A stretch of DNA of 64,000 nucleotides. It comes from Sparassis latifolia (lineage: Eukaryota > Basidiomycota > Agaricomycetes > Polyporales > Sparassidaceae). The stretch is taken from contig CM031560.1 of NCBI GenBank assembly GCA_018466975.1, forward strand, positions 2,666,001 through 2,730,000. Direction: 5' to 3'. Made by a program: the position numbers and the translations under genes. Shown piece after piece: positions 4,806-28,277 of the stretch. The first letter of the stretch is position 1; the number at the start of each line of letters is the position of its first letter. A model generated the notes under the pieces. That model did not search any database and had not been told where the DNA came from. It worked only from the letters and a program-made list of their open reading frames with translations.

Positions 4806-7800
4806 ATGCCTTCGCCATTTGATGAATCTCCATCTTCTCTCGCACTCAATTCGCACTTCCTTGAGAACGATCACGACCACCCCTCTTCCTCTTTTGACGA
4901 GCCCTCCTCCGACGGTGACACCGCATCACAGCGTTCGATTACGCTGTCTTCCGCCCCGCCTTCCCCACGCTCCGCTGCGCCCGCCCTTGCGGACCTCGCC
5001 GAGGTGCAGCCCCCGCCTACAACTATCACGCCCGTCACGCTTGTCCGCCAGAACCTCTCATTCAGCAAACGCAACACGATGGATACGGACGTCAGTTCCG
5101 ACGTGGACCCGGACGACCGCAGCTTCTTCACGCGCCGCCTGGACGAGGGCGAGTCACCCATATCAAGTATCGCGCCGTCCGTGAGTGAGAACGAGAAGAT
5201 TGGGCCTCTACGGACGCCCTCGTCAGCGGGTATCCTGTCGAGGAGCGATGCAGATAGTATCCTTTCTGCTGGCTCGGAGTCGACGTCATATTCGAGGAAG
5301 GCGCGCCCAGAGTCATTGATCGTTCAGCCTTCGAAGGGTCCGTTGGTACTCGGGATTGCGCTCGTAGACTTCGACCATCTGGTGAGTGTCTTGCGACGTG
5401 TCTTTGTTTCCCCCTGAATAGCCTATCAGGTTGGGCCGAAGATCGAGTTTTCACGGGGAAGCATATTCAATGACGAGGAGATCGTGAAGATTATGCCATT
5501 TCTCGCTTTGCCCGATGGGGCACATATGGTGCGTTATGCTTCTAAATTTCTGGCTCAGACAGTGACATTGCTCGTAGTCGACTGAGGATTATTCGTACTT
5601 TCACCTTGTTCCCTCGTCACCAAATCCGAAGACGATATTCGGTATTTCGTGAGCATGATTGCTACCCTCTGTCCGGATTTTTGTACTAACGGTGCGTAGC
5701 TGTAATCGACAGATTCAGACGTCGGAGTTACTCGTGAAGGACGCGGACGTGACACGGTCGACGGTGCAGAAGGCGGTAGTGGTGTTAGCGTCAGAACCTG
5801 TGTTCGGTCTCATTCGGTGCGTGCAATCCATCCTAGCGCCTACTGTCAGCGTTAAGCTATTTACAGAGACCGTCTTGGTGTAATAACACGCGCACTCTTT
5901 GCACAGCGTGATTTCTCGGAAACAAGTATCCTCGATGCGTTCTACACGTCGCTGGAGCACTCCCTCCGCACTCAGCTTACGGAGAGCGGGCTGTACATGG
6001 GTATGCATCTTTCCCTGTTGCTATCACCTTCCATGGTGCTGATGTCGATGCAGGAACTAGCTTGTGAGTAACTTAGCCCCTCGATCTATGTTCGTTGTGT
6101 TGATGGATGCAGACGAGAGTTAGTCCACACCTTCCGACAACGGACGTTGGTCCTTTTGAAAGCGCTGATGCTCCAAAAGAAGGTTTGTTTTTGTCGTTCT
6201 CTGTACTACCCGCCGGTGCCTGATGGTGACACAGATCATGTTTTTCGGCCATCCAGTGGAGAAGTTGTGCACGCACCAATACTCGCTCGTCACACTTGTT
6301 CCTGGTAAGTGTGATCTATATTGTGTGTCTCGCGACGCGTGCTGAAGTGTGCGGTCTTTAGGTCTGCTGCAAAATCTTGTAGATTGCGGCTCCCCGCCGC
6401 TCGCGACCCGTGCACAGACTCTTTCTCGTCCTACATCTCTGCGCACGTCGGACCCAAAAAGTATGATGGCATATGTTGGGCTGCCGCTCGACCTCTTCGG
6501 CAAAGTGCGTTATCCGACAGTGATGTGCCGTTTGGCAAGGCGTGAAGCTGACAGCTCCTTTGATACTTTGCAGGACGCCTTCTTCCAGCCGTATCTTCCT
6601 CTGCAACAGCTCGACATGCTAAGGGACACGGAGAGCTGGTTGTGCGGGAGCACGAACTCGATCGTCGCGCAACAGAAGGCGGTGGATATCCTCGTGAACG
6701 TGAGCACCTCTGTACCTGGGACCGGTCCCAGGGAAGATACTCGGGTGTGGCGGGGGTGCTGATGTTGCTGCTGATTGTTAGATAGAAAACGGAACGATGG
6801 AGTTTCATGATCCGAAATTGGAGCGCTCTGCTGGACTCACTCCTGCTGACAGGAAGTGGATGGACGATATCGTGCGGGATGTTAACGAGACTTATGATGA
6901 GGACCCGTCAAGACCATTGGGCATGCAGTGTGTATTATTCTACCTGCATTGCGCTGTTGATTACTGAGGGCCCCCCAGTTTCAAGGGCAGCGATGATTAT
7001 CTGCGGCAGAAGGCAGGTATTGATCCACAGATCGTGGGCTCAGGTTCTGATAGGATCATATTTTCCACAGTTTGACGAGTACATCAACGGTGCACTTGCC
7101 TCGGTCAAGTATTCTGCGTTCTTGGCGAAGGGGAGGAGTGCTGGCGTCATAATCAGCGATGGCTCAGGTACGACAGATTTCAAACGTCTTGAGCATGGGC
7201 TAATACAAGTGTATGTAGTAGACCCGAACTCAGTACAGGACTTCAATGCACTATGGATACAGGAGTTCAAGAAGACCAACGCGTACGAGGTGTGGGAGCG
7301 TGTCACGGATCCCCTCTTGTTTGATATCGTTGAAGCACGGTGTGTAACGCCTACACTACATGTTCATTTCACCATTCTCAGTGGCCCCCTCAGGCATCCA
7401 TGTAGCGACAAGCCGTCCGTTGTAGCCGACCTTGGCCTTCGTCTCTCTGAAGGTATCCAGGAGCTGAAGATCGAGCAGCAACTAGCACCCACGCGTGAAG
7501 CCATTTCACGCACGTTTACAGCTGCGGTGGAGGGGGTTCGCGGTCGCTGGCTCCCGCGCAACCCGAGCTCCAGCACGAGCGTCAGTGCTGCTACCGCCTC
7601 ATCTCCATCTGCCACATCCACGAATACTTCAACTAGCACATCTAGCAGTATCGTCGAGGTGAGCAAGACGGATGCGCAACCCGACAGTACGCCGGGTTCT
7701 CGGCGAGGTTCGGTTGATCGTCGCGCCTCAGAGACTCTCCCAAACGGTCTGCGCCCGCTGAGCATGACAGCCAATCGTACGCCCCCACCTCCTCCCCCGC

Positions 7801-10691: not shown

Positions 10692-11254
10692 TTTTAATTT
10701 TTTTAATTTTAAATCCCATTTATTGTCCTCGAGGGCGAAGCCCTATGGTAGACAATAACTACTGTATCTAGCTTGTATCTCGAGCGGATGCGGGAGATGA
10801 ATAAAACAAATGCCTGCACGAGTGCAGGACTTTTAGATAGTGGTGTAACTGTGGGGGATAATGTGAGTGAAAGGGGAATTGCTGTAAAGGTGTAAAGGTG
10901 TAGGTAAGGAGCAGCCCCATGCGCATGCATTCTGTACTCTGGTGAGTGAATGCTAGAGACTGAGATCTAAACCTGCTGCCCTTCTGGATAGTAGAAGCCT
11001 ACTCCCGAGTGTGTCCTCTTGCCGCAGTCAGGGATCCGGACGGTGGTCCCCCACCGGCCGTCAAAACTCCCCCGATCTCTCAGGTGGTGATACACTGCTA
11101 AGGTGTCCATGTTGTACAGTAAGAAAGATAAGAATCAAGGCCTGGGTGCGACAGAAGAGGGGAGAGGGTTGGTGGTGCCTGTAGTGCAACCGAACTGGTC
11201 TGTGAATAGAGGGGAAGCATCAGTGGACGATAAAGTGCAGCAGGAGGGACTTCT
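10692..11254 (-). mobile_element. LINE 3' untranslated region and tail (3' half of a split LINE)
   Basis: Minus-strand continuation of the LINE fragment at 27603-28277; the two halves were separated by the Plavaka insertion just downstream of the LINE stop codon. The 3' end on the minus strand is an A-rich tail built of AATTAAAA units (10692-10713). It is followed by the 13-bp sequence AAGTCAGTAATAG (10679-10691 in plus coordinates, reverse complement), which is repeated exactly at 28278-28290, on the other side of the whole structure. That identifies the target duplication. No protein is encoded in this half. Confidence 0.85.
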
Positions 11255-11256
11255 CT

Positions 11257-11293
11257 CATCAGGAAAACCTCAACTTTACTTACAACAGCTTAA
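11257..11293 (+). repeat. Left terminal inverted repeat of the Plavaka element
   Basis: Starts CATCAGGAAAACCT and pairs with the reverse complement of 27564-27600; about five mismatches in 37 positions. Flanked by CT on the outside, as is the right end. Confidence 0.88.
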
Positions 11294-12067
11294 TCGTCTT
11301 GATCACGTAATCAAGAACCTTAAGTACAATAAGCTGATCTCTGTACTTGACTGGCTTGATTGCCGCTTGACCAGCTTACGACCAAAGAAGAGCCAGGTAA
11401 TAAGCTGAGAAGATCGCAGAAGTTGACTGACTTGATTTTACTTGACCGACTTAATCTCGCTTGGCCAGCTTGAGAAAGCAACATCACAAGCACACTAAGT
11501 CAATGAAGTCAACTAGTATTCAATGGCTATATCAAGTAACTTAAGCAAATCGGCATGTAAGGAGAGTCAGATAAGAAGCTGGGCAGCCGGCAGAAGTCAG
11601 AACAGCGACAAAAGCAAGTAAGGGAGATCCCAAAAACAAGTAGGTATCATGTAGCTAGGCATAGCAAGCTACAAAGAATGTACTAGGTGATAGCAAGACA
11701 GAAGGACAGGCATGGTAAGCTAAAAAGAGTGAAGCGAGAGTAAGACTGGTGCGGAATTAAGAACATGTATAAAAAAGCAAGATTACTATAAAACGAGTTT
11801 AATGAGTGAATGCGACTGTATAAATGCAAAGACTAAGGACTGGCAAGCGAGCAAGCAAGCAATGATGACTGTACCAAAGAAGATGCAATAACTGACTTGC
11901 AGTTAAGACGACGATCAGATGGTGCTCAATGACAAAACAAAGCGATCCAATGACTAAACTTCAAGTCACTGAGGCTGTGAGGTAGCGATGTGCATATAAA
12001 CTGAAACAGACTGTTGCAAATGATGTCAGTTCAACAGACAAATGACAAAGAAAAGACGTGCCTTCAA
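11294..12067. repeat. Left subterminal region with CTTGAC / AGCTTA motifs
   Basis: About 770 bases without a credible gene. Short related units recur near the end, for example CTTGACTGGCTTGATTGCCG near 11348 and CTTGACCGACTTAATCTCG near 11441, together with CCAGCTTA and CAGCTTAA variants. Subterminal arrays of short motifs are the usual transposase-binding sites of CACTA-like elements; the role here is inferred. Confidence 0.5.
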
Positions 12068-14316
12068 TTAAGAATCATAGTCATCCTCAGAATCAGCATC
12101 GACAAGGTTCGCACGCTCGTCATTAGAATCCTCCTCATCTGATACTTCAATGACGTCCTGCATGTTTGATTTGTAGATCTTCTTTGCTTCAGTGACAATC
12201 CTGTCAACTTTGTGATCCAATAGATTTACAGCAGAGCTAACATATTGCCAGCTTTTCTTGCCAAAGCTTGCATCCGAGAACACATATTTGTTCTTGTCTT
12301 CCTTTCTGCTTTGAGGGTTAATGAACTTGACCGTTACTACCTTCCCCTCTTGCATCAGTAATACTCCTGTCCTTCACAAAGTGAACGCTCGCTCAAGCTA
12401 TCAATAATTAAGGTTAGATAGACACTACCATAAAACAGCAGATTACACGCACCGCAGCTGCAGCTAACCCAATTGCACCATAAGGCTTAGCACATCCTCC
12501 CATCTCGATAGTGTACAGAGCAGGAACATTGATCGCTCCTTCAGTTGACTTGTAATAGTAGGCAAGTGTTCGTAAGACCAGGGGCAAACGAAAGAGACCT
12601 CTGAAAGTCTTGTTTTAAATGAGTAAGTATTCAGTAAATACCAGCTGACAATATGACGATCACACATCGATTCATCTGGACCATCAACATCCTTCCACAC
12701 AAATCGCTGTTTACGGAGAATCATCTTTGCAAAGCTCACACGTTGTCCAGTCATCTCAAAATCTTCATCAGAGCCGAACAAATCTCTGACGACTGTGAGT
12801 GCAGTAGAACCAAAGCCATTACGCCATTCGCAGAGCCTCTGATTGGCCTAAATTGGTGAAGAGGGCAGCAGTGTTTGAGCATACAGTGAGATGTACAATC
12901 ACAGAGACTTACAAGTTTACAGATGAAATCTTCATGAATAACCTTGTGCATGATCTTTGGTTTAGTAAAAACTGCATCCCAAATGCATTGCAACACTTCG
13001 ACAGCCTTCTCATCGCTGATCAACCAGAGATCCAGTGTAGTACCAATATATTGCTCCAAGGTCGGAATGAACACCTGCCGCCAGAGCTTCAAAGTGCCAG
13101 GCAGTAAATTGGCATTGGTCGCACTAGTTGACTTTGGCTTCTTGGACTTGACAAGTGCACCATCGTCCTTCTCGTTGTTGACCTCGATCTCCGTGTCTTC
13201 AATTTTAACCATACTCTACAAAAGTTGCTCAGTATCGTCTCAATATTGTACAGGCTGCTTACATTACTGGTCAAGCGTATTCCTCCCTTTACAGGACTGG
13301 AAAGGGCTGCAATTCGTTCAAGTTCGTTGTCGTCATCACTGGAGATCTCACCGCCAACTTCGATTTCAATGAAGTTAATCTTGTCTGATTTTGATTCTAA
13401 CTTTTTGACAGTCTGCGACACCTTGGTGAAATTGGACATCTGAGTCTTGGCTGTTTTGGATGAGGCAGCAAGGGACTGTGAAGTGCCAGAAGTGGATGAT
13501 GGACGAGCCTTAGAAGGAAGATTCCAAGTGGGTACATTTGTTGCCCAGTTCTTGATCGTTCCAGAGAGGTTGCCGGCATCCTTCTTATCCCTGCAGGTAT
13601 AGTAGAAGAGGGTGGTTTCATCGAGTGTGAGTAATGGCTGCATGAAGGGACAATTTGAGTACCACTTACCTTTGTGCAGGCACTTTGGCTTCCTTATAGC
13701 TACCAGCCTTCCCAGCACATGCTCAGGCGTCTTCTCTCTTGACTGTACCCTCATCCTCAGATGACTCAACAACAACAGGCTCTTTCATTCACTTGTTAGT
13801 CTCCTTCGCATTCTGTTTGTGAGCGGCATCTATGGCTTTTCTGGTGGACTGCTTCTTCGGCTTCTTCTTCGGGCGCTCATTCTCCATCTCGATATCTGTA
13901 AGTTCAGAGCCTTCAGCATCGGATGCATCTCCTACCGCTTCTTGTTCAGCTTGTTCAATCTGCTGAAGACGGTTGTCTGCATCATGGTGACCATCCTCCA
14001 TTACATCAAGGGAAGCATAGGTGCATCAGAGAGATTGAGGGTCTGAAGCCCGAGGACGTTTCACAGGCTGCTGAGATGACTGTGTGACACATCCAGTCTC
14101 AATTTTGGCTGTGTCATTGGCCAATCTGTCCTCCAGATCAGCAATCTTCTTCAACTTCTTGACCTTGGCTAGCTGCGTCTCCTCCTTGGCCTTTTCTTCT
14201 GCCCTTTTGGCCTCTTTTACCTCTGCCTGGGTGCGTCTTTTTACCCTTAGATCAAGTTGACCAGGATGTTTATCGACATTTGTCGCACGAATAACAGGAC
14301 AAGACATAGTAGGCAT
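12068..14316 (-). CDS. Uncharacterised basidiomycete-type protein carried inside the Plavaka element
   Basis: No function can be assigned. Read on the minus strand from ATG 14316, a basic coiled head (NVDKHPGQLDLRVKRRT, then Lys/Glu-rich AEEKAKEETQLAKVKK) precedes a region rich in Lys and Asp (ENERPKKKPKKQSTRK), probably nuclear. Next comes a serine-rich linker, then a folded part with LPGTLKLWRQVFIPTLEQYI, EVLQCIWDAVF and CEWRNGFGSTALTVVRDLF. The last exons give LRTLAYYYKSTEGAINVP and a C-terminus rich in Asp/Ser ending at 12068. Exons are joined by short introns and no obvious break was seen. Proteins of this architecture occur, to my recollection, as multicopy unknowns in Agaricomycetes. 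It is oriented the same way as the neighbouring GDH2 gene and against the transposase. Confidence 0.6.
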
Positions 14317-15444
14317 TGAGGAGTGACCTGGAAAAGGGTGACAGCAGAAATATAGTTGGTTTTAACAGTTGTTGCCAGGGTGCTCAGCATCTAACGGCAG
14401 TGAATTTTGACCATTCAGGAGGGTGCCCATCTCGATATATTACAGGCAATATTACTTGAATTAAATGTATTTTCTGACTGTCCTTCGGCACAGTCTAAGT
14501 CCATGTCACATATCGCAGAGAGCAGCAGACAGGAAGAAGTTCGGTTGGTGTCTCAACAACTTTTCCCTCACCATCATGGTCGGGTTGGGTCATGTCATAG
14601 TCACAAACCACATCCACGGTAGAGATAAGTGCCCACACGCATTCTCAAACAGCCAGTGACCAGTGACCAGTGGAGTTCAGGACTCAAACCACTGCAAATC
14701 CACTTTGCTAGGTGAGTCGTGCTCTGAGTGTGTGTGCTAACTGGTCTACTATGATGATCCTCAGTATGGCATCTTTGGGTGCATCACCTGTCTTGTATAA
14801 TATACCACAGAATTATTTGACGAGAATGGGCTGAAGACCTTCTCGACACTTTCTGCGAGACATAGGCATGTCTGTGCCCATTTCATAGGGCAAAAGAGCA
14901 GACTTGTTTGTGACGAAGTTAGGGAGAACTTGTGTGAGATGATGCGGTTCTGCAGACAAATGTCCCCTAGGTACCGATAGTATCACACAGTTTGGTACAT
15001 AGTAGGTTGTACCTATTCCCATCGTTATATCCAGATCATATCTCTAATACATTCAGCAGAGATGATTAATGCCACAACCATTGCACTCTACCTATGGCTT
15101 TTGGAAAGCCATCGCTGCTGAGTCGGAGAGCCGCTGAAAGCTAATGAATCATGCCTGATGCCTTTGGAATCGATAAGCACAATTCTTCTACCCTACATGT
15201 CACATTTCCAACATATGTGGTGCGAAGAAAGCAGGTGCGTGTTGTTCAAGTTCAGAGTGAGACTAAGTAGTGTTGAATGGACTTGCCATCTCTCGCACCA
15301 CTGCAAAGCTTGAGCCATTGTCACCTCTAAGCAATCAATACTTTTTCCTATACGATATGAATGCACAATGAAGACAACTGTGTGGTTGGATGACAAGGTC
15401 CATTGATGACGGATAATGCAAGGATGACGATGATGTGATGCGTT
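14317..15444. other. Gene-free stretch inside the Plavaka element
   Basis: About 1.1 kb between the unknown gene and the GDH2 stop. Only short unrelated open frames are present. I see no repeat, RNA gene or terminal sequence that would mark a nested element. Confidence 0.4.
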
Positions 15445-18400
15445 CTAAGCTGCAAGATCACGGACGAAGTGGAAGAAGTCTACAGAAGAGTCGTTGATGC
15501 CATACTTATAGATCTGCGCATAATCGAACATGATGGTCAGTTTGACTGATGCAACAAGTGGCACAAGGAAGGAACACACACGAAATGTGATGCCATCCAG
15601 CTCGAGAACAACGCACATTGGTATGGTTTACTACGGTTTGAAAAGCCTGTTCAGCACGGTATCGAGCCCAACTTGGTCGACGAGCATCTTGGGAATCGCT
15701 TGGCTCATGATGCCCTGTCAGCACGCAGGATCTTCGTACAGGTCCGAACCCTCCAACTCGGTCTGCAGGTCATTGAGCATGATTGACAGCTCGTCCGAGA
15801 TGAACGTGCATGCCTTCACACCCTGTGCATGCACGTGCTCCTGCCAGAGGCACTGGAACTCCGCCACAGCATTCTCAGTGACCCTCGCTTGAAATGGCTT
15901 CCCGTTCTTGAAGATCATTAGGTCGACGTATTCTTGTGTTGAGAGCATGAGCCCAGCGAGTACCTCCAGCGATGAGCTCGTGACACCACCTGAAGGGGCA
16001 ACATGAGGGCTTTGATGGTGTGCATATAATGTGCTTGATCCTACTTTGTTGGTACTAGAGTCCTTGAACAGTACAACTTTCTGCTTCTCAAGGTAAAGAC
16101 GCGCTTGCTGTGTCAGGAACAGATTCGCACCCTTGATGATGTACTTGAAGTGCGGCTTGCCCTCCGAGTCCACCAGAGCGGCAACATTCGATATATTGAC
16201 AGCCTCGGGTCTAGAGTATCCGCATAAGCATGCAAAAACCCACGTAACTAAGTTGAAATACTGACCGTCCACCGCAAGGCACAAACAAGCCGGCCTTGAA
16301 CCGCAAATGCGCGCCATTCCTGAAATCAGTACCGTCCAGAATGACTTCTCCAGCTGCGCCATCCGTCAGTACGCACTCGCGCGAATTTACCGGTCAATAC
16401 CAACTCACATGGCAGTTTGAGGTCCTGGTCCTCCACGTGCACCAAATATCTGTCCTTGCTGAGCTTGGACTTGTCGAAGTGGGTGACAGGGACGTGCAGC
16501 TTCGCCAGTCGGATGAGCTTCTCACGGTCGATACCGGTGGGGTCAGCAAGGATGCCACTACCGTCAATGACAGCGATGGTCTTGTCGGAGCTGAGAAGGA
16601 TCTCATCTACACGAATGCATGAGTAATTCACGAAATCATACGGAGTCACAACGGGGCATATACTCACTTGAGCCAAGATCACCATCTGCCGCAACACATA
16701 AGACCCGATCAGCAATCACGATCAAATGACACGAGCCTCAAACTAATGCACCAGGTCCGCCAGTCTGCACTTTCGTGATATCCTTCTCCCTAAGCCCGAG
16801 CTGCTTGTAGATCTCGAGCACATACTGCTGAATTGAGAGTGACATCATACCGAACTGGTCGTGTGGGATGCCGCCGAGCGTCTCTGTGCTCTTGCCCATC
16901 GTGAATGACTTCCACCAGGTCTCCGCACCGCGGGCGCGTGTGTGCACTTCCAGAGAGCTTGCATCAGGATAGAGTACAGGAATAGAGAGTTCAGGGATAC
17001 TCACGAGCTGCCCAATCCATCATGTCCGCAGTACCCTCTATCACCGCCATAGTGAGTATGAAATGGTCCGAAGGAGGCGACGGGCACGCACCATCCGGAC
17101 CGAAGAACAGCAGCTTCGGCTTGCCATACAGATTGATCAGATGTTCCTTGATCCCAGGGCTTTGTCCAGGGATCAGCAGGTCGATGACAGCGTGCATCCA
17201 AGGATTAGTCTCAGCAACATTAACGACCGCTAGAGTGCCAACTTACGTCCACGTATTTCTCGAAGCACAATCTTGGGCTTGAACCCAATCTGCGAAGCAG
17301 GACAAGCGGCTGTCAGTGCCTGAATGGCAAGTGTGAAATGGAAGAAAGGAAGATGAAATGTACAAAGGTAGGATCATGCCCTTAGCACCGTCTTCTGGGA
17401 TGTCCTTGTTCTTTAGGGACTGCGTCGATGCTAGGTCATAGTTCTCATCGAACCTGCCAAACACCGCATCAGAATCAGTGGACCCTGCAGAGCATATGAT
17501 GCATACAGCATTCTCTGGTTAATAGAGTAGTTCCTATCACAGACATCGGTAAGACAGACGAAGTGAAAGCAGGTATGCGAGACACTCACTCACTATTCCT
17601 CGACATAACAATCCTGATACCTCCCCGCGCGACGTCCCTGAACCTGATGTGGAAGCCATGGAATTCACCGCCTACACCCATATCACGCGACCAATCAAAA
17701 ACACTCCCAGCTGCACAGATCAAAGTCCTCACCAATGATGAAGAACATGCCAAACGGTTTCTTCGGGTACTCCACCTCAGGCAGGAAGTCTGGCGTGAGG
17801 TGGAACGACAGTGCGACCTTAGTCGGCTGGTAAAAGTTGGTCTTAAGGACGTGCCTATCCAGTCACCCGTGTCAGCCTAGCATAGCACACGTTGTACATA
17901 TGGGAGTTGAACACACTTGTTAAAGATCAAGAAGCTCTCAAGGACCTGCAGCTCATGCTTGTTGTGCACAGTTTTCCTGATCTTGTCATAGAGGTCCTCA
18001 TCGGACAGTGGGACTTGGGTCTGGAGATGCTGGTATGACAGCATAGGCCTGCCACAGCATTCGCGTCAGACATAAGGTGCAGCATACACTAGCTGGGAAT
18101 GCACATCAACTACGATGCCTCGTCCGCCACGGGGTAGTGCACCATCGAAGTTAACATACAGTAAGTTAATCTGCCCACACGACCATAATGAATTGCAGCA
18201 GCACATGAACTAGCACAACATGACGTACGAGGTCAGCATGTGCATGGATGACCTGCGCGATGCTTTCTCGCATGAAGGTCTCCTCCCTGAAGCGGTGTTT
18301 GATGTTGTTCAGCACTTCCGCATGTGACGGGTTCGACTCGTCGAGAATATTCTTCAATGCGAGGTACGCCGGCCCAAGATGGTTGCAGAAGTGCTGCGCG

Positions 18401-19575
18401 AACACCCAACCGCAGTCTGTGTCCCAGACGCGATGCGACTCAGATATAATGACGTCATCTAAGAGTGAGACACAAAAGTGATGTACAAGCATAAGTCGCC
18501 TCCTGCACGGCATGCCCGCTGTTCTGGCGGGCTCTGCGGAGAAGAAGGGGTTGTCGGGCAGGCAATATAACAGCGAGGCCTCCTTCATCACTTGGAATAT
18601 GGAATGCTCGATTGGGGGAGCATTCAGCACGCTCGGGAGAGGGTTAAGATACAAGGATATAATCGTGATGCCATTCGAGAATTGCTCTGCGTGAATCATG
18701 AACTGTGAGTGCGCAAAGACGGAACATGCTTGAGCTACATACCGACATATTTGCGCGCGGAATAGAGGGCATAAAAGTGGTACAGATTTGAGAGGGCACT
18801 GAAGAACTTGCTCGTGCTGCCCATCTTATACCCGATGACGAGCCTGCGCTCACAGCTGCCCTCCACCTCGATGACCTCGATGACAGGCCCGTAACGCATC
18901 TCCACATTCCACATCACATTCTGGTAGATTTCCAGCGTGTTCTCGCTGGCCTTCTCGAGGAACACTGGGTCAGAGATGGTGCAGATGTCCATTTTACTGC
19001 AACACCAGCCATATTTAGTTCGATTAGAGTCTGATTCATACGAGAGAGAGCTACGCACCCATCTGTATACATCAAAGAAGGTGGACTGGTGGGGAAGTTG
19101 CACTTGGTAATGAAGTAGCAGCACAGCTGTTGCGATGCGGTAGCAGATACAAGGCCCTGCGAGCGATACGTCTCGAGCCTGTATGCCTTACTCGGGGTGG
19201 AGTTGTCGAGATACAATGCGTTGATCCTATTCTCACACGATGCGCCAGGGCTCTCGGTCACAGTCTTACCGGGTGAGCTAGTGTAGATGGATGTCACGCC
19301 ATTGTCGTTCTCGTTGATCTTCTCGAGGGAGTCGATCTCTTGTTCAGCACCAGCACCATACTCACCAGGTTGGGGTCCAGGGAGCCAGTGTGGTACAACT
19401 CCCTATGCTTTGCAATATAGCTGTCCTCAATGACCAGCGGCGTGGGTGCGGCCATCAGTTCAGGCTCAGACTTGGGCTCGAGCACAGTCATCAGCTCTGT
19501 GTGCACAATGAGTGTGTTAGGAGATGGGGAGCAAGGAGGGTGAGGCGAGAGAGGACAAGTCGCCACACGCCACAA
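15445..19575 (-). CDS. GDH2: NAD-dependent glutamate dehydrogenase, captured inside the transposon, N-terminus shortened
   Basis: Large fungal NAD-specific enzyme (EC 1.4.1.2) that deaminates glutamate to 2-oxoglutarate and ammonium. Minus-strand exons give, in order, TSSPGKTVTESPGASCENRI, DSTPSKAYR-type NSTPSKAYRLETYRS, and AQHFCNHLGPAYLALKNIL. They continue with VLKTNFYQPTKVALSFHLTP, GEFHGFHIRFRDVARGGIRI, ENYDLASTQSLKNKDIPE and FFGPDGACPSPP-containing sequence next to EGTADMMDWAA. An 18-base mini-exon near 16670 restores the nucleotide-binding motif TGGPDGDLGSNEILLSS when its two introns are removed. Then come HLRFKAGLFVPCGGRPEAVN and, at the end, VDFFHFVRDLAA. The C-terminus (15445-15720) is diverged. 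The usual N-terminal ~80-100 residues are not seen, and the exact start is uncertain. It is normally a core single-copy host gene, yet here it lies between transposon ends. Confidence 0.85.
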
Positions 19576-19592
19576 CTTCCCAAAGTGGCTGC

Positions 19593-19635
19593 CTCAAGGG
19601 AATTTTTCTGGCGGTTCCAGAAAAATTCCCTTGAG
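19593..19635. repeat. Perfect 19-bp inverted repeat in the divergent promoter
   Basis: Arm CTCAAGGGAATTTTTCTGG (19593-19611), loop CGGTT, and its exact complement at 19617-19635. It lies between the 5' end of GDH2 (minus) and the ATG of the dioxygenase gene (plus, 19646). It could be a protein-binding site for the two facing promoters, a small insertion scar or a cruciform; the sequence alone does not decide. Confidence 0.8.
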
Positions 19636-19645
19636 AGCACTACTC

Positions 19646-22600
19646 ATGTCTTTGCTCGGCCTCTCTGAGGCTGACCTGCTGGTTCTCATCGACTTCATCC
19701 GCTCTCGGGCTAACCTCCCTCCACAAATTACCTCTATTCTATCTAAGCTTAACCCAGCTGCCTCTCTGGAGCTTCCAGTCGTCCAGTGGCATATCTGTCT
19801 CCTTCGCTGATGCCAATGCTGACCCCCACTCATGCTAGACCTCATCTTCAAGGCTCAGTTGAGTACATTCCCCCTTTCTTGGGTTGTCTCTTCCTAACAC
19901 ATTTTGTACTATCAAGATATGCACTTCTCTGAGATTACCTTCGATCCTCGAAGACCTCGCTGCAGCTGGCCACTCTGAGGACAATGCTACCTTTGAGTAC
20001 CTCCACCTCCAGCATATGCATGGACCCCCTCCAGGTTCTCTGGGTTCTTCACTCACCTCATCTCCTGGAAGTCTGTATGAAAATCAGAATGCCAATGCCG
20101 ACTGGCCTGTTGAGGACGAGAATGAGGTTGAGGACGAGGGCGAGGAGAATATGGAGGACAAGAGTGAGGAGAATATGGAGGACGAGGGTGAGGAGAATAT
20201 GGAGGAGGAGACATCGGATGAGGAGCCTCTCATAGACTTGGTGCATCATCTTGGTGGAGGCAACTGTGTTCGAGGGGGAAAGAAAGCAGGCAAGGTGCAT
20301 GGAATGGCGTTGATAGAGAACGATCCTGCAGAGGAGGATCAACGCATGGAGATTTTTGAGGATGCGAATGTCGAGCAGGGTGATAGTCCATTCAACGAGA
20401 GTGACTGGACAGGTCTCCCGGCAGGAACACCAGCACGGTGGACTGTTGCTGACATTCCTGCTGTTCTGGAGGTGGGCCTGGCAAGGCTGCTACCCACTAT
20501 GTTGCATTGCTTGCTGAGGGCACATCAAGCAATGTTGAAGGCCCAGAGGTTGCCATGTAAGTGTCAATTTGGTGCATACATTGTGATTGAGTTGACGGCA
20601 GCTTGTAGTTGGGTTGGTGCCATGAAGGATCTTGTCGAAGGTCATATGTGGGAGCATCTAGATAGCGCCTTCGACACTAATGCATTGAGGGCACTCGTCT
20701 ACCACGTACATCGAGCTGAACATGTGCTGTTGGGCACAGAAGTTGTGGCAATGTTTGCGAAGGTCCAATTGGCCATAAAGATAGAAATGTGAGCATTTCG
20801 TCTTCAATTCACCACCATAGTACTTAAAACTATTCATAGCACCCTTCAGAGAGACAATGCTGGCCTGAAGAAGGGGAAGAAGAGGGAAGGGGAAAAAGAG
20901 AGAAGGGGAAGAAGAGGGAAGGGGAAGAAGAGGGAAGGGGAAGAAGAGGAAGAAGCTTTCAGACCTTTACAAAAAGCACATCACCACAATGGAGAATGCC
21001 CCGCAAGAGAAGATGTTCCGCAGGTGGGTAGCAATTGGTCAGAGATTTGCAGCTCTTGCTGCAGCAGGTGAGTCCATTTAGTATCTCTCTGCTACACATC
21101 TCAAGGTGCTTTCTTTTCTCAGGTTCTGTATATCTCCTTATCATCATTGCTGCTCGTGGTCATTACAAAATGATCGGGTCGCTGCAACAGCCCACCATCT
21201 GGGTGATGTGTAATACGTTACGGTGGCCGAATCCAGGTAACCAATTCAGTAAGTGTGACGAAATGCACTGAAGCTGAACGTCAACCAGATACGCTTATTG
21301 GACAGCACATTCTGAGTCAACTTATCCCCCTTATTGACTATGTCTGCCAAGCTATTCCTCTGAGTATAGACACCATCTTTCCACCGTCCTGGCTTCAGGA
21401 AGTTGGACTAACACAGCACATTAACTGTCAAGATTTTGATCTAACAGTCACTTTCTTTGACACGTTTACATATAAGTAAGCCTTGTCTTTTGTATCTACC
21501 ATGGTCGATTCTAAGACATGATCTCACATTAGATGTTTTCGATCTGTTGATTGTCATCGCCCTTCATGGGCACCTTGTCTGATCTCTGAAGATATCATGG
21601 AGATGGATGAAGGCCCTACATCCATGTATCTGATGACTAGAAATCTCCTGTTTGCGGCATCTAGCACAGCTTCAACACGTCTACCTTCTCCGATAATTGA
21701 TGCAAAAGGTGAACTAACTGGTGATGCAGTGGATCTGCAGGATACTAGGCTTGATAGAGATCCCTTTCCTGATGCTCCATCATTCCGCTCTGAGCAGTTC
21801 TACACTCCAGATGCAAGTTCTCCACAGTATCTGGTCCTTGATACCAATTTTGACCTGGATACTCCAATGAACAAGGCTTGTCCTTATCCCAAGAAGAAGA
21901 AGGAGACTAGCAAGTGGATTAGGTGGTCTGACCAGCAGCGCAAGTATGCGGAGAATGCCTATAATGCGACAACTCTTGCAGACTTTGAAACAAAGGTATG
22001 TTCGTTATATCTCTCCATATATATCTATTAATCTTCTCTTGCACAGGTCAAGCACCATTACTCTTTTGATGGTGTGAAGGTCACGAACTCCTATATTTGT
22101 CTAGACTGCTCAGCCTTTGCGGGGTACGTTGCTTACTATTATCTAAATTACTGTTTCTAAATATCTTGCAGGAAAGAAATTCAACTTAATTGCAAAGATG
22201 GAGAGCTGCTTGCCTTTGTTGCAGCAGATATGTCACAAGCGATGAGAGAAGGACTGGAGCGAGGTCTTCGTTCAATCTTATTCAGTGGTGGGCTATCGGA
22301 GTATCAGCTGCAAGACGTGGACACTGCTGCCAGTCCTGGTCAGCACAAGTTTCCTTGCATTCATTTCTCCCGCTATGCACGTAATATTGTTCGGGTGCAT
22401 TATCTTGCATCTCTACTTCATACAATATACTGAATTATCTTTAGGGTGATGATGCTCCTGACGATGTCCATCCACTATTTCTCTACAAGGCCAAGGTTGT
22501 TTGTGGGTATATGAATCATCATCAGATGATACCTTATGTTTGGAAGGAGTTTTTTGATCATGAGCAGGAGTACGATGCTTTGTACAATGTCTTTGAAGAA

Positions 22601-23070
22601 TTCTTTCAATGGATTGCTGATAAGGTGAGTTTTCTGAGTTTGCTATTATAAAAGTAATTGCCTTATCGGAAGTGCAGCTCCGTCAATGTCTTCCTGACAT
22701 TTACGATGCTATCGAGATATCTGCGGATGCCCTTCCTGCACGTGAGGCCTCACCATGCCATCCCTTCACTAGCCTGGTTCTTAACATTAACGTTATTATG
22801 CACGCACATCAAGATGTCAAAGATCTCAAGGCGTGCTTGATGCTTGTTCTTGGACGACATGATGGTGGTGATTTATGCTTTGTTGAACCTGGTATTGTTC
22901 TTCCTCTGCAAAGCGGTGACTCAGTTGTTTTTTATTCTCTTAAGCTTACTCACTTTAACCTGCACTATTGCGGTGAGAGAGCCTCTCTTGTGTTACATTC
23001 AGACAGAGACAGTGAAGATTGGGATAAAGATCAGAAGGGTTGGCAGCATAGCACGTTTATGAATTCTTAG
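19646..23070 (+). CDS. TET/JBP-like 2OG-Fe(II) dioxygenase (predicted 5-methylpyrimidine oxidase) of the transposon
   Basis: Predicted nuclear oxidase of methylated pyrimidines. The C-terminal exons hold the double-stranded beta-helix core: NVIMHAHQDVKDLKACLMLV supplies the HxD metal ligands (HQD). GGDLCFVEPGIVLPLQSGDS and THFNLHYCGERASLVLHSD supply the distal histidine and the 2-oxoglutarate-binding arginine, so the catalytic set looks complete. Upstream exons give RWVAIGQRFAALAAAGSVYL and a long middle region with HHYSFDGVKVTNSYICLDC. The head contains MSLLGLSEADLLVLIDFIRS, an acidic repeat (EEN-MED units) and a Lys/Arg/Glu-rich tract. I read it as one gene with about ten introns; the part before 20792 could be a separate gene. 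TET/JBP genes linked to transposons are known from basidiomycetes, mostly with KDZ elements. Here the gene sits in tandem with a Plavaka transposase, 134 bases upstream. Confidence 0.78.
20129..20216 (+). repeat. Acidic coding minisatellite
   Basis: Three to four imperfect 27-base units (GAGGAGAATATGGAGGAC core) encode repeated Glu/Asp/Met residues in the N-terminal part of the dioxygenase gene. The unit length is a multiple of three, so the frame is preserved. Confidence 0.75.
20868..20953 (+). repeat. Purine-rich repeat AAGGGGAAGAAGAGGG
   Basis: About five copies of a 16-18-base all-purine unit on the plus strand. In the frame used by the following exon it encodes Lys, Arg, Gly and Glu, so it may be a basic nuclear-targeting tract or lie in an intron. 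Confidence 0.7.
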
Positions 23071-23203
23071 TAGCTTGCATATGTTCTTAGATTTGGCAGA
23101 CGAATTATGACTATTTTCCTGGTCTGGTACTGTAAGTTATGCTGCCGCGTCTCGTCTTATCTTTGCAAAGTCCCACTTCAGTCTGTGCATAATATTGCAC
23201 TCG

Positions 23204-26200
23204 ATGCCTGTCCATCTAACTCCTCGACCCCAACACATTCCGAGTTTCCTTCACTACCCTTGCAAGGTTTCTGGCTGCAATCGATGGTTTAAGAACAAGG
23301 GTGGACTTACGAAACACACTCGGTCCACTCATGCTCACACTCCTCCTGCACAGAGGCAAACAAACACTATTTATCAGGCACAATATGCAACGTCTTCTCA
23401 TGGCAATGCTCATGATGATCAGGAAGCTGAAACTGATTCAGAAGACGAGTCTAGTGATACACAGTCTGAAGATGACAATTCTGCATCTGCACGCTCAAGT
23501 TCTTCGAATCGTGCACCATCATGGTCTCCAGTATATTCAGATGGTGCTAATGTCTTGTCCATTTCTGAATTGGATATTGACCCGGAGGATGGAAGTGACT
23601 TCGATGGTGAATTCAATGCCAAGGACTACACTAGAGTGGATCCAGATCCAATTGGTGTGACAAGAGAATATCATCCCTACATTAATAGTAAGTTCGTCTG
23701 CTTGCATGCAAATTTCACTAAGTCCTCCTATGTCTGACAGGAAGGCCATGTGATGAAAATGGGATCTATCTTCCAAATGGTACACCTCCCCCACCTCCCC
23801 CTGCTCCAGAACCAGACGATTGGTTCCCTTACCCCGATCGAGTAGCCTTTGAAACGGCTGAATTCCTTTACAAATGAGATCAAATGTCAGCAGATAAGAT
23901 CGACACACTTCTTCAGTTGTGGGCTGCCAGTCTAGTACAACATCAGGACCATCCACTGTTTGCAGATCACGAAGAGCTATACAGTATAATAGATTCAACA
24001 TTACTTGATGAGGTCAGGTGAGAATCATTCAATTTGCAGTATGAAGGCGAGCTTCCCGAGAGAAATGTTCCCTCATGGATGACGGCAAAGTACGAGGTCC
24101 ATTTTCAAAATCCACGAGAAGTATTTCGCAACCAAATGGCAAATGTTGATTTTGATGGTGAGATCGACTATGGACCACTACGGGAGTTTGAGAATGGCAA
24201 ACGTCACCTGAAAGACTTTATGTCTGGAGATTGAGCCTGGAGGCAAGCAGTGAGCTTATTCTGTTTGTTTTTATCTTTGTAACTAATGTCAGTCAATCTT
24301 AGGACCTCATTGCACAGGATCCAAGTACGCATGGTGCAGCCTTCATTCCTGTCATTCTTAGCAGTGACAAAACTACTGTCTCTGTTGCTACTGGACAAAA
24401 TGAGTATTATCCACTGTATGGATCCATTGGAGGTGTACACAATAATGTACGTCGTGCACATCGCAATGCTGTAGCACTGTTGGGCTTTCTTGCCATTCCG
24501 AAGAGTGAGTTACGATCTAAGTGTCGATTCTAATGGTGGCACATGAGCTGATCACTTGAATGGTAATAGCTGATAAGGAGTTCTCCGAGGATGCAACGTT
24601 TCACAAGTTTTGCTGACAGTTGTTTTATAGTTCATTGTCAAGAATCTTACAGCCATTGAAGCCTGGAATGACAACGTCAGAGGTTACACTATGTGCAGAT
24701 GGCCACTATCGGCGGGTCGTGTATGGTCTCGGTCCCTATATCGCAGACTATCCAGAACAAGCTCTGCTTGCATGTGTTATCTCTGGCTGGTGTCCAAAGT
24801 TAGCCATTCCATTACTTACTTTTCACTTCACTGACAGTTTTTCTAGGTGCACCGCTCCAAGAAATGATCTTGACGGTCCCGGCTATGGGTTGCATTGCCA
24901 TGAACATACTGAACTGCTAGTACGAGAACTAGAACTTGGTGTGTTATGGGATGAATATGGTCTCGTTGGAGATATAGTGGTGAGTCTAGCCTTAGATTCA
25001 ATGCGCTGTCATTTCAATTTTACCACTTTCATAGCTGACTTTCTTTCACTATTACAGCCATTTACAAATGATTTTCCTCGAGCCGACATTCATAAACTCC
25101 TCTCTCTGGATCTTCTTCATCAGATCATTAAGGGAACATTTAAGGATCACCTTGTTAGCTGGGTGGAGGACTACATCCATCTAACCTATGACAAGAAGGA
25201 AGTGAAGAGAATTATGGCAGATATTGATCAACGGTGAGTTTTTATGAAGTCTAACTGTTTCATCATATAAAGCTTGCCTCCCATTATAGCATTGCAGCTG
25301 TACCTGCATTCTCTGGTCTACGGCAATTCCCTGAGGGCTGTGGATTCAAGCAATGGACAGGAGATGATTCAAAAGCATTAATGAAGGTTCGTTCTTGCTA
25401 GTACTAAATAAATGGTTTCACCAAATGTATATATATATATATGTACTAGGTTTATCTTCCTGCAATCATCGACTACGTTCCTCAGGACATGGTCCGTGCC
25501 ATCCGTGCCTTTCTTGAGTTCTGTTATCTCGCAAGGTGCAACATCCACACAGAGCGGACACTTGAAGCACTTCAGGATGCTCTTGATCGCTTTCACCATT
25601 ATCGAAAAATCTTTGAGACTTCTGGTGTTCGACCTGATGGCATTTCACTCCCTCGGCAGCATTCTCTTTGCCATTATAAATTCTCAATTTGGGAATTTGG
25701 CGCTCCGAATGGTTTGTGCTCGTTAATCACTGAATCAAAGCATATCAAAGCTGTCAAGGAGCCTTGGCGACGATCAAGCAGATACAAGGCTCTTGGGCAA
25801 ATGTTGCGGACAAACCAGAGAATCGACAAGCTTGCGGCTGCTCGCATTGACTTCACAAATCGTGGGATGCTGAATGGCTCGTGTCTTTCAGAGGCATTAC
25901 AGAAGCTAGGTAAGCCTATTTATGTCTCTGTCATCAGTTTATTGAGTTATCAACAGTTGCTGTAGATGACAGTCTCAGCGAGAAAGAAGATGTTGAAGCA
26001 AATGCCGATCATCTCACAATAAAGCCATCAAATTGTGATGAGCAAAATGATGATGGCGCTGTTTCTGGACCAACAATTCTTGCATACGTTGACTTGGCTG
26101 CCACTATTCGTGAGCAGCGATTAACTTCATTCTGCCATATAGTTCTGCTGACCAATTTATAACAGAGCGGCAACATGCCAGAAGCTTTGCTGAACTTGCT

Positions 26201-26827
26201 AAGGAGATCAATCAACTGAAACTTCCTGAGCTCATTCGACAGTTTCTTTATGATCAGTTGAATCCAGATAATCCCCGACCTGCATCTGACATTGATATCA
26301 ATGAATGTCCCACACTCAAGGGAAAGATCTCTATGCACTACTCTGCCGCTGCGACATATTATGCTCCTAGTGATCCATGTGGTGTCGGCGGGATGCATTG
26401 TGAGCATATTCGAGCAAACCCAGTATGGCGTGGACTTGCTCCACGTTTTGATTGTGCCCTCGTCAACTGTGACTCGACTCAGGATGGCATGCTGGGAATC
26501 GAGGTTGTTCACATCCATTTATTCTTCTCTTTCAAGCACGAAGGTCGCCAATATTCCTGTGCCCTTGTCCATTGGTTCCAACGAATCGACGACCAGCCAA
26601 ATGAAGATGTCAGCATGTGGGTTGTTCAGCCAGAAATGGATGTGCAACACATACCTTTTATGTCCGTAATCCATCTCGACTTTATAATACGTGCCACACA
26701 CTTGATCCCTGTGTATGGCGATGCACGTATATTACGAGATATCACAGATGAGAACTCCCTGGATGCATTTCAGGCTTTCTATGTCAACAAGTTTGCTGAC
26801 CACCATGCATTCGAAATCCTGTCATGA
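23204..26827 (+). pseudogene. Plavaka transposase with four in-frame TGA codons
   Basis: DDE-type transposase of the Plavaka class. The N-terminus has a C2H2 finger (CKVSGCNRWFKNKGGLTKH, C-x4-C-x12-H-x4-H) and an acidic linker. It is followed by the family blocks PLFADHEELYSIIDSTLL, VPSWMTAKYEVHFQNPREV, FIPVILSSDKTTVSVATGQN and SSLSRILQPLKPGMTTSEVT. Next are GPYIADYPEQALLACVISGW, TNDFPRADIHKLLSLDLLHQ, EPWRRSSRYKALGQML and a C-terminal all-beta part ending SLDAFQAFYVNKFADHHAF. In-frame TGA codons interrupt it at 23875, 24019, 24232 and 24614. At each place the family has Arg or Trp, so each is a single C-to-T or G-to-A change. Otherwise the gene is complete, with introns, from ATG 23204 to TGA 26827. 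It may still be transposed in trans. Confidence 0.88.
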
Positions 26828-27269
26828 TTTGATTCAACATGTGTAGAGAAGGAAGCATATTGGAAGGCCCGCTCTCCTTCAAGTGCGTCATCCCATTCAT
26901 TTGAGATTTTAATTTGAAGCCTGAGTCACATCAGTCTTATGCGGTGAGCACTAATCTCTTATCTCATCACACAAACAAGTCATTAACAGTGTTATAGATC
27001 TCCTCCAGGGCTTCAGCAACCTCATCAATGGGAATGTACTTCCACTACCATACTATAAATACGAATGCAGCATCATGTGCATACAGGCTTATTTCAGTCA
27101 CACTAGCGTAGCAGAAAACTTTTGCCAGGCATTGAATGGCTCTCAGCTTCCCTTCATAGGAAAGGGCAAGCTCAATCCAATGACAATACACTTTGGTTCA
27201 CTTAGTGTCCTTGTTCTGCGCAACTCCTTTAATGACTTATGTTACTTACCAAGTATATACATTAGTTGA
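26828..27269. other. 3' flank of the transposase
   Basis: About 440 bases without a supportable gene between the transposase stop and the subterminal repeats. Only short unrelated frames are present. Confidence 0.4.
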
Positions 27270-27545
27270 CTTATCGAACTTGACATGCGTGCTCAACTGC
27301 CTTATCTAGTGGCTTAACATCATAATTACTATTTTTACTTACTAATACAGACTAAGTAAAGCCAAGAAAGGTCTCAAAATATAATTTAACACTTGATTTC
27401 CTTATCGGACTTGACATGCATGCTCAACTGCCTTATCTGGTAGCTTAATGTCATAATTACTATTTCTACTTACTAATATAGACTAAGTAGAGCCAAGAAA
27501 GGTCTCAAAATGTAATTTAATGCTTGTTTCCCTTATCGGAGTTGA
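27270..27545 (+). repeat. Right subterminal tandem repeat, 131-bp unit
   Basis: Two adjacent copies (27270-27400 and 27401-27531) and the start of a third, each opening with CTTATCG(A/G)ACTTGACATGC and differing mainly by transitions. They end about 20 bases before the right terminal repeat. The position suggests transposase-binding sites. The left end has only short related motifs. Confidence 0.85.
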
Positions 27546-27563
27546 CCCCCTTAGATAAGATGC

Positions 27564-27600
27564 TTAAGCTGATCAAAGTAAATTTAAGGTTTTCCTGATG
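27564..27600 (-). repeat. Right terminal inverted repeat of the Plavaka element
   Basis: Reverse complement begins CATCAGGAAAACCT and matches the left end over 37 bases with about five differences. The base pair outside is CT, as on the left. Confidence 0.88.
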
Positions 27601-27602
27601 CT

Positions 27603-28277
27603 GTCAGGTGTGTGGGGCTTGTGTGTGGCTTCTCTTGTCAAAGTGGTCTAAATGGCCATATGTGGCGGTGAACCTGCCAGTGGCGTGGATGTAACAAAAA
27701 AGGAGATGAGTGGTGTGTGAGCTCGAGAGGAGTTTGGACAGCAATGTGGCTATGCAGCTGAGCTCCTGAGTAAGGACATGGCGGTGCGGGTGGTAGGCTG
27801 GGCAGCTGAGGAGGAAGTGCTGTACTGATTCTACATGAGACTTGCAAGCTGGGCAGAGTTTCATTGAGGAGCACTTGATGCAGTGCAGGTGTGCATTGAG
27901 CAGTGCATGCCTGCTATGACCAAGTAAGTACAGAGAGGCCATCGGTCCACCAATTTCTAGATTAGCAGTCAAGGCATTCACAATCCCTGTATGAAGCTGT
28001 GTAAGAAGGCTGATGTGGCAGTGTGGGAGGTTGGCGACGAGTTTTTTGAACTTTGTGGAGGGGAGGGAGGGGTCTATACGTGCGAAGGCATGTCCACGCT
28101 CAGAGTTCATCTATTGTGTCGCTGCTCTGTCTTTCAGGTGCTTCAGGTGGCATTCTCGCAGCTTGGAGGTGCTGAGGGGGAATCACGTAGGCTCTTGGAA
28201 AGCATGGCATCGAGGGTGGCCTCTCCATGGGCCACTTTCTTGGCTTCTTTGTCAGCTTGTTCATTACCCTCAATGTC
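27603..28277 (-). mobile_element. LINE fragment: end of RNase H and C-terminal zinc-knuckle region
   Basis: 5'-truncated non-LTR retrotransposon on the minus strand. It begins with GNEQADKEAKKVAHGE, the end of an RNase H domain. After a broken stretch comes FARIDPSLPSTKFKKLVANL, then LTQLHTG, and LCPACKSHVESVQHFLLSCP, the C-terminal Cys/His motif of I/Tad-type fungal LINEs. The stop codon TGA at 27604-27606 lies two bases before the Plavaka element, and the 3' untranslated part resumes at 11254. Its 5' edge at 28277 adjoins the 13-bp target duplication 28278-28290. Total length without the insertion is about 1.24 kb. It carries in-frame stops and is dead. Confidence 0.85.

Follow-up and report, generated by a model that had tools for sequence, protein, structure and literature searches.

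A 16,344-bp interval of the Sparassis latifolia genome (Polyporales), located at positions 11257-27600 of the window (i.e., the whole 64,000-nucleotide stretch of DNA that was analysed), very probably represents a PlavakaB-type (CMCT) DNA transposon that captured genomic host DNA by transduplication. The element is seated in a LINE with a CT/CT target-site duplication (TSD) and encloses a decayed genomic fragment of the host glutamate dehydrogenase gene GDH2 (Table 1). Transduplication is a known process, but the TET-bearing PlavakaB elements apparently are a new transposon group for it, and its mechanism is what we infer below.

Table 1. Coordinates of the PlavakaB-type element, its parts and its insertion site (positions in the window)
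Feature	Position	Strand	Remarks
LINE, left side of the insertion (tested stretch)	10757..11256	-	
Target-site duplication CT, left	11255..11256		single TT at this site in the empty LINE paralogue on C11
Left terminal inverted repeat	11257..11300	+	begins CATCAGG
Left module	11257..14503		homologous to the sister element C10:5011458-5024670; 68% over 11257-11739, 76.6% over 11875-14503
Unknown gene, approximate limits	12068..14361	-	Sparassis relatives P0001 and P0002; weakly DUF6532-like
Stretch missing from the sister element	14504..14909		14769-14889 matches C11:2617860-2617980 at 84%
Pseudogene: genomic fragment captured from host GDH2 (C9:1240499-1244958), 5'-truncated	14910..19328	-	
177 bp without match elsewhere in the genome (one DNA search)	19329..19505		
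Right module	19506..27600		in two small derivatives (C3, C6), 3 bp separate the edges 19506-19851 and 27156-27600
TET/JBP-like gene, approximate (start taken from relative P0005)	19646..23070	+	catalytic HxD motif; exon 22624-23067
Plavaka transposase gene, approximate limits	23204..26827	+	premature TGA at 23875 and 24232
Subterminal direct repeat	27270..27531		2 x 131 bp, 89% identical
Right terminal inverted repeat	27557..27600	-	terminates CCTGATG
Target-site duplication CT, right	27601..27602		
LINE, right side of the insertion (tested stretch)	27603..28102	-	zf-RVT-like ORF 27607-28110

The boundaries of the element are well defined. Its terminal inverted repeats (TIRs) pair at 37 of 44 bases, compared with 26 in the best of 200,000 random 44-mer pairs drawn from the window, and the first 14 bases of the element end recur genome-wide, with 282 occurrences at up to one mismatch versus 12 for the reversed pattern. 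A query of 1000 bases, in which the two flanks were joined at position 500, retrieved the empty site: C11:202613-203421 aligns without a break to positions 1-809 of the joined flanks (87%), i.e., across the junction. The initial annotation had described a 16.3-kb unit with inverted ends and CT duplications inserted into a single repeat, and all of this was borne out; the name LINE is based on zf-RVT and RNase H matches that both lie below the cut-off. A perfect 2-bp TSD was present in three of five two-ended elements (the window element, C6 and C6b), while those on C3 and C10 are without an intact one. That unrelated stretches were joined between the TIRs during assembly is extremely improbable, as it is contradicted by the matching TIRs, the 2-bp TSD and the continuous empty site as well as by the existence of a second element of similar design.

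The termini conform to the PlavakaB pattern 5'-CATCA..TGATG-3' and the CT/CT duplication to its 2- or 3-bp TSD; Kojima 2025 (PMC12730594) gives CATCA..TGATG termini and a 2-bp TSD for PlavakaB. The Plavaka transposase recognised in the initial annotation was confirmed with PF18759 scores of 162.7 bits in one exon and 257.9 bits on the spliced model (cut-off 26.3). The gene is still present, but it is broken by two premature stops, whose TGA codons correspond to sense codons in the sister element.

The neighbouring oxygenase gene had been annotated as a TET/JBP-like dioxygenase, and the corresponding Pfam match is weak, since PF12851 scores 21.3 bits on the exon and 28.3 bits on the spliced model against a cut-off of 34.9. 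The same profile gave 35.8 bits for the relative P0007 and 26.2 bits for P0006, with no match in P0004 and P0005, and no PDB chain was matched in a profile search with the TET/JBP-like domain. The catalytic motif HAHQD is of the HxD form, not the HxE that replaces it in PE-type enzymes. Five Tet_JBP loci of the same genome were taken for comparison, one of which (L043) dropped out because the wrong ORF had been picked; identity to four strong loci amounts to 24-27% (E 0.026-0.3), versus 64% to the relative on C5. From its sequence, the oxygenase thus seems to lack close similarity to the AG type (Kyakuja/CcTET), to which the compared loci presumably belong. The data weakly suggest a TET/JBP-like enzyme below the Pfam cut-off; by its motif it is not of the PE type reported for other Plavaka elements. 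The proposed DNA-modification cargo stands insofar as a TET/JBP-like gene lies inside the element, but it is not new, because TET-bearing Plavaka elements have already been described (Kojima 2025, PMC12730594). The unknown gene of the initial annotation is likewise present and at best DUF6532-like, its relative P0001 reaching 20.3 bits against a cut-off of 24.

The glutamate dehydrogenase sequence is a fragment of the intact host gene at C9:1.24 Mb, to which it is colinear over 4,480 aligned columns including introns and 3' flank (90.5% identity). Compared with Sparassis latifolia GDH, intron-free exon segments of the host gene reach 95-100% identity (five tblastn pieces). GDH2 was located by protein pieces, as the PF05088 genome search missed it, probably due to its short exons, and the ten genome matches fall on two loci only, the window and C9. 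The initial annotation was correct about the intron-containing NAD-glutamate dehydrogenase sequence, but not about a full gene: the 5' part is missing, the edges lie within an exon and in the 3' flank, and the copy shows a 30-bp deletion, two nonsense codons and three frameshifting indels within exons, plus a fourth indel of 1 bp on the edge of an exon, leaving no complete open reading frame. The captured copy provides the host with no glutamate dehydrogenase. Although most exons are recognisable and the GDH Pfam domains match, a functional enzyme carried as nitrogen-metabolism cargo has next to no probability and is excluded for this copy by the truncation, frameshifts and nonsense codons, with which the neutral-looking substitution spectrum agrees.

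Among 356 substitutions, C>T or G>A changes relative to the host account for 231, versus 74 reverse transitions; 153 of the 231 affect host CpG sites, and CpGs number 367 in the host gene against 227 in the copy. When coding effects are counted with the direction assumed to be from host to transposon, the CpG transitions (58 non-synonymous and 44 synonymous) are proportional to the available sites (288 and 221), and the non-CpG transitions comprise 18 coding changes, one of them nonsense, versus 20 for 581 and 475 sites, respectively, which is slightly fewer than the sites predict. Decay after capture would hence have proceeded without visible selection and mostly by C-to-T changes at CpG, as expected of putatively methylated DNA. 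The initial annotation had proposed testing whether other copies of the element also carry GDH2; a single transposon copy of the fragment was found in the genome, with no sign of amplification, and movement after capture is accordingly deduced from the empty LINE site alone.

The closest relatives of the element differ between its two ends, and the host DNA is located between the two modules. The left 100 bp match the sister element at 82 of 99 positions, compared with 71-75 of 99 for three small elements, whereas over the right 200 bp these small deletion derivatives match at 182-187 of 199 positions, compared with 133 of 199 for the sister. At both ends the small elements resemble one another; the Fisher values for the discordance between the ends (3.5e-7 to 5.3e-4) are computed as if sites were independent, and the small elements are related. 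The sister is 68-77% identical and completely lacks 14504-23160. No host gene was recognised among the listed ORFs of the small derivatives C3, C6 and C6b, which were thereby rejected as further gene carriers; C6b holds a nested 1.3-kb repeat that is present at many places in the genome. At C8:1389-1395 kb, the Plavaka gene is interrupted by a gap of 6 kb, which was also dismissed as cargo, since a 3.5-kb sample of it corresponds to a Ty1/copia-like retrotransposon.

Host DNA is found in the sister as well. It contains clathrin heavy-chain sequence from C11:2088766-2092357 (93-94% identity), a locus at which the coding sequence runs on beyond both sides of the shared stretch. In the sister this fragment is split by a methyltransferase-like stretch matching C4:808728-809591 (87%). 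In both elements a host gene fragment with a donor locus in the genome lies between the TIRs, as in transduplication and in Pack-TYPE elements. Clathrin sequence adjoins Plavaka pieces at two further candidate loci. The clathrin copies may stem from one capture or from several, since the copy at C10:3.87 Mb reaches past both borders of the clathrin block of the sister.

How was the host DNA enclosed? It is on balance probable that the window element is a hybrid, whose left module (to 14503) and right module (from 19506) stem from two subfamilies. A pair of adjacent elements whose terminal deletions complement each other would be mobilised as a single unit, and host DNA lying between them would thereby be enclosed, as proposed for Arabidopsis Pack-CACTA. 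By this analogy, the discordance of the ends and the position of the host DNA between the modules fit the hybrid-element model of plant Pack-CACTA capture. The discordance could also mean that the small elements are the recombinants, and the unknown gene and transposase shared with the sister at similar identity (77% and 73%) would be compatible with common descent of the whole element; a tandem parent pair was not seen. No insertion traces were seen by eye at the host GDH2 locus where the captured stretch begins and ends, and inspection of the seams for microhomology gave no decisive result. Abortive gap repair, in which host GDH2 would have been copied in from an ectopic template once one element had been excised or broken, is rather unlikely. 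It would account for the intact donor locus, for the colinear block with its introns and for the methyltransferase-like stretch, which, as templated filler would, splits a clathrin sequence that the host locus has in one piece. However, it predicts that both ends belong to one subfamily, whereas their nearest relatives differ and the block sits between the points at which the similarity to two relatives stops.

Considerably less probable is a separate later event, i.e., a nested element or segmental duplication that placed the GDH2 block and its neighbours between the TIRs by chance. In its favour, the sister lacks 14504-23160, and 14504-19505 opens with TGT, closes with CA and has CA as its flank at either end; a match of 2 bp occurs by chance once in 16 cases. 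But no repeats of at least 25 bp link the inner borders, the longest direct repeats within 6 bp of seven inner-border pairs measure 2-4 bp, compared with a mean of 3.5 and a maximum of 7 in 300 random pairs, and inverted matches over 20 bp reach at best 8-12 (random mean 9.8, maximum 14). The internal target duplications or terminal repeats that the initial annotation had named as signs of a later insertion are thus absent above chance level at the tested inner borders, and a nested arrival of the block was rejected. Its termination within an exon and in the 3' flank and the comparable host fragments of the sister point in the same direction.

Tentatively, and short of an even expectation, the hybrid origin may be generalised: the TET-bearing PlavakaB elements of Sparassis could be the fungal counterpart of Pack-CACTA, in which parts of neighbouring elements repeatedly fused around host DNA, so that different host fragments (GDH2, clathrin heavy chain, the methyltransferase-like gene and perhaps a C2H2 factor) sit at the seams between transposase-bearing and right-end modules, some with stepwise further capture and spread. 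The GDH2 and clathrin pieces in related elements suggest that the copying of host genes may be a recurrent activity of these elements, as it is in some plant transposons. If this pattern holds, the presence of a metabolic gene within a transposon does not by itself imply functional cargo, and the enclosure of host DNA by CACTA-clade elements could be studied in a mushroom genome that contains donors, products and small derivatives alike.

In plants, there is ample documentation of cut-and-paste transposons that capture genes. Among the matches listed in the open-licence literature none concerned capture by Plavaka, and the fungal cases were ascomycete hAT elements. The TET-positive PlavakaB elements of Kojima 2025 (PMC12730594), from two Agaricales species and with PE-type (HxE) enzymes, share the termini, the 2-bp TSD, the Plavaka transposase and the internal TET/JBP-like gene with the window element, which differs by its occurrence in Polyporales, its HxD motif and its captured host DNA; the word "glutamate" is absent from the main text of that paper. 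Ascomycete hAT elements transduplicate histone H3 (Manning 2013, PMC3538342; Dhillon 2019, PMC6710886), in the latter study as transcript-like copies without introns that number in the hundreds; in Pseudocercospora fijiensis the copies are decayed by RIP. Dhillon 2019 further reports the amplification of a methyltransferase gene in Zymoseptoria. Common to both systems is a fungal DNA transposon with a decayed copy of a housekeeping gene, but here it is a Plavaka element with a single genomic, intron-bearing copy. The Helitron-borne genes of Pleurotus (PMC4289320) also represent extra genes on basidiomycete DNA transposons, albeit of the rolling-circle type. Similar in architecture are the plant Pack-TYPE elements, which are described as non-autonomous (PMC13317346; for Pack-CACTA also PMC8903248) and for which a hybrid model with a seam between two element parts has been proposed in Arabidopsis Pack-CACTA (Catoni 2019, via PMC13317346). 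Both hold host fragments between the TIRs of CACTA-clade elements with a proposed seam, but the Sparassis element is a fungal Plavaka that has kept its transposase, albeit broken, together with a TET-like gene.

The window corresponds to C9:2666001-2730000 of an assembly of 41.4 Mb in 22 contigs (C3 to C11 below). The inverted ends of the element at 11257 and 27600 pair at 37/44 bases, compared with 26 in the best of 200,000 random 44-mer pairs used as a control, and CT is present next to both ends. When 500 bases per side were joined with one CT and compared with the genome, C11:202613-203421 aligned uninterrupted to positions 1-809 of the joined flanks (87%); this paralogous LINE copy represents the empty site. 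The repeat is called a LINE on the basis of weak matches to zf-RVT and RNase H. The paired ends, the CT flanks and the uninterrupted empty site thus document a single TIR-bounded insertion of 16,344 bp, confirming the initial annotation, which had described one transposon within a LINE. A genome search with the first 14 bases of the element end (≤1 mismatch) gave 282 occurrences, and the reversed control gave 12. Many of the occurrences listed, which are part of the 282, form pairs about 200 bp apart, and small MITE-like relatives are therefore abundant. Elsewhere in the window, two ORFs, nearly identical and spaced about 10.8 kb apart, lie on either side of reverse transcriptase/integrase-like ORFs; the pair probably represents the long terminal repeats of a Ty3-like retrotransposon.

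Features of the window (nucleotide positions)
Feature	Position	Strand	Basis
Left module of the element	11257-14503
GDH2 block	14910-19328
Right module of the element	19506-27600
TET/JBP-like gene	~19646-23070
ORF, probable long terminal repeat	45207-45731		by eye
Reverse transcriptase/integrase-like region	50151-52198	-	by eye
ORF, probable long terminal repeat	56025-56510		by eye

Translated GDH2 pieces gave 10 matches in the genome at two loci only, the window and C9:1241316-1244455. The GDH2 block is colinear at the DNA level with C9:1240499-1244958, with 90.5% identity across 4,480 columns that take in the introns and the 3' flank. The host gene at C9 extends further upstream and, by eye, reads as an intact protein among neighbors that look like ordinary genes; its top match is a Sparassis latifolia protein named NAD-specific glutamate dehydrogenase, to which five intron-free tblastn pieces are 95-100% identical. 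The window copy begins within an exon and lacks about the first 70 residues of the annotated S. latifolia protein; the missing part is larger if an exon further upstream, noted by eye, also belongs to the gene. Its exons contain frameshifting changes of 1, 2 and 10 bp and a 30-bp deletion, another 1 bp is missing at the edge of an exon, and nonsense codons interrupt the protein at positions 398 and 932; the copy is not the full metabolic gene that had been proposed. Near the C-terminus the host gene encodes VDEVGLDTV, in contrast to the VDQVGLDTV shared by the transposon copy and the S. latifolia record; given this common Q, another allele may survive in the captured copy.

The substitutions from host to transposon comprise 231/356 C>T or G>A changes and 74 reverse transitions. 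A host CpG is the site of 153 of the 231, and the CpG count is 367 in the host and 227 in the window copy. The codon analysis covered 918 validated codons, 903 of them compared whole and 15 set aside for gaps. CpG transitions were 58 non-synonymous and 44 synonymous, versus 288 and 221 available sites. Non-CpG transitions, for which the direction of change is assumed and to which the host lineage contributes as well, were 18 non-synonymous (one nonsense) and 20 synonymous, versus 581 and 475 sites, with coding changes slightly below chance. Overall, the copy looks like a case of neutral decay of the type that methylated cytosine gives.

The window transposase matches Pfam Plavaka; at 23875 and 24232 it has TGA in place of the sense codons of the sister element (C10:5011458-5024670). 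The TET/JBP-like gene encodes a 2OG-oxygenase core with HxD and the conserved downstream His; it scores 28.3 bits against Tet_JBP, under the cut-off of 34.9, which its relative P0007 exceeds. Compared with four strong Tet_JBP loci of the genome (five were taken, a different ORF having been picked for one), its product shows 24-27% identity (E 0.026-0.3); identity to a relative at C5:1376005-1378066 is 64%. For the genes belonging to the element itself, the closest relatives come from S. latifolia and S. crispa; together with the match of the host GDH2, this places the organism at genus level in Sparassis, order Polyporales. The C5 relative is followed by further ORFs, among which no Plavaka transposase was recognized, and no listed Plavaka-profile match lies near. 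Tet_JBP has 44 matches genome-wide, many near-equal in score, a recurrence that suggests an amplified TET-bearing transposon family.

The sister element is 13.2 kb long, lies on the opposite strand and resembles the window element at its ends, unknown gene and transposase (68-77% in local alignments). Just 30 bp separate its unknown gene from the transposase, so that it lacks a counterpart of window 14504-23160. Between transposase and right end sits a clathrin heavy-chain fragment (Pfam Clathrin, 1.5e-70) equivalent to C11:2088766-2092357 at 93-94%, introns included; it is internal, since the C11 coding sequence runs past both borders, and close to its upstream border it carries a premature stop. 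The fragment is split by 872 bp that match C4:808728-809591 (87%) and partly C3:1422378-1422894 (81%) and read as methyltransferase-like (20.7 bits, just under the Pfam cut-off of 21.2). Clathrin sequence is also located between Plavaka gene pieces at C10:3866030-3875828 and C10:4894667-4905573 (both read in part). A further clathrin match, at C8:2.03 Mb, has no Plavaka match in its vicinity. The copy at C10:4.90 Mb has the same methyltransferase junctions as the sister; the one at C10:3.87 Mb reaches past both borders of the sister's block, and because of this overrun the copies may reflect one capture or several.

Five elements (window, C10, C3, C6, C6b) were selected by similarity to the ends of the window element. 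Host-gene fragments are present in both long elements with both ends examined (window, C10), and none was recognizable in the three short ones (C3, C6, C6b). C6b (positions 1773-4930 of stretch L058) contains a nested 1.3-kb repeat with dozens of other sites, the longer matches at 75-85%. The Plavaka profile has 112 genome matches, a minority of which were inspected. A gap within the Plavaka gene at C8:1388-1395 kb was rejected as host cargo: the stretch sampled there, C8:1390001-1393500, belongs, by eye, to a Ty1/copia-like retrotransposon that interrupts the gene. At C8:416379-416826, two C2H2-finger stretches, one of them Pfam-scored (19.7 bits, under the cut-off), adjoin an 845-column right-end module that also occurs in the sister, and stop about 10 bp short of its breakpoint. 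They resemble a host transcription factor and perhaps represent another captured gene; the 7.7 kb inspected on that side of this C8 element contained no left end.

In two small derivatives, stretches resembling window 19506-19851 and 27156-27600 are separated by 3 bp, and in a third 19706 abuts 26987; given these junctions, 19506-27600 resembles an independent right module. The last 200 bp of the window element agree with the three small elements at 182-187/199 positions versus 133/199 with the sister, and the first 100 bp with the sister at 82/99 versus 71-75/99 with the small elements, which among themselves agree at 96-98/100 (left) and 181-190/200 (right). The nearest relatives of the two ends therefore differ, and host DNA falls between the end of sister similarity (14503) and the start of small-element similarity (19506). 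The sister's clathrin block starts one base past its 845-column right module, which is common with C8:416837-417680 at 92%. This anatomy fits a proposal for Pack-CACTA elements, set out in the available part of a review (PMC13317346), that neighboring elements with complementary terminal deletions are mobilized jointly, intervening DNA included. Two such neighbors would move as one and carry the host DNA between them, and we lean slightly toward this origin for the window element. The differing affinities of the ends could also arise if the small elements, rather than the window element, were the recombinants, and gap repair could have put the host DNA into the element. Direct and inverted repeats at seven inner-border pairs were at chance level only; 14504-19505 is bordered by CA on both sides, with a chance expectation of 1 in 16. 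A stretch of 121 bp (14769-14889) matches C11:2617860-2617980 (84%) and partly C11:2593286-2593372 (82%).

Fungal transduplication is described, in the available parts of the sources, for hAT elements that carry histone H3 (Manning 2013, PMC3538342; Dhillon 2019, PMC6710886), the latter reporting a transcript-like copy without introns. Among the open-licence papers listed, none reported transduplication by Plavaka or with clathrin, and none linked glutamate dehydrogenase to transposons and gene capture in fungi. According to the available part of Kojima 2025 (PMC12730594), TET-bearing Plavaka are PlavakaB elements of two Agaricales species with CATCA..TGATG termini and TSDs of 2 or 3 bp, Plavaka is listed among the carriers of PE-type enzymes with the hallmark HxE, and Kyakuja is the only TET-bearing group reported from Polyporales. 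The window element is like this PlavakaB in termini and TSD, but differs from the Plavaka described there in its host order, Polyporales instead of Agaricales, and in its enzyme, which has HxD instead of HxE.
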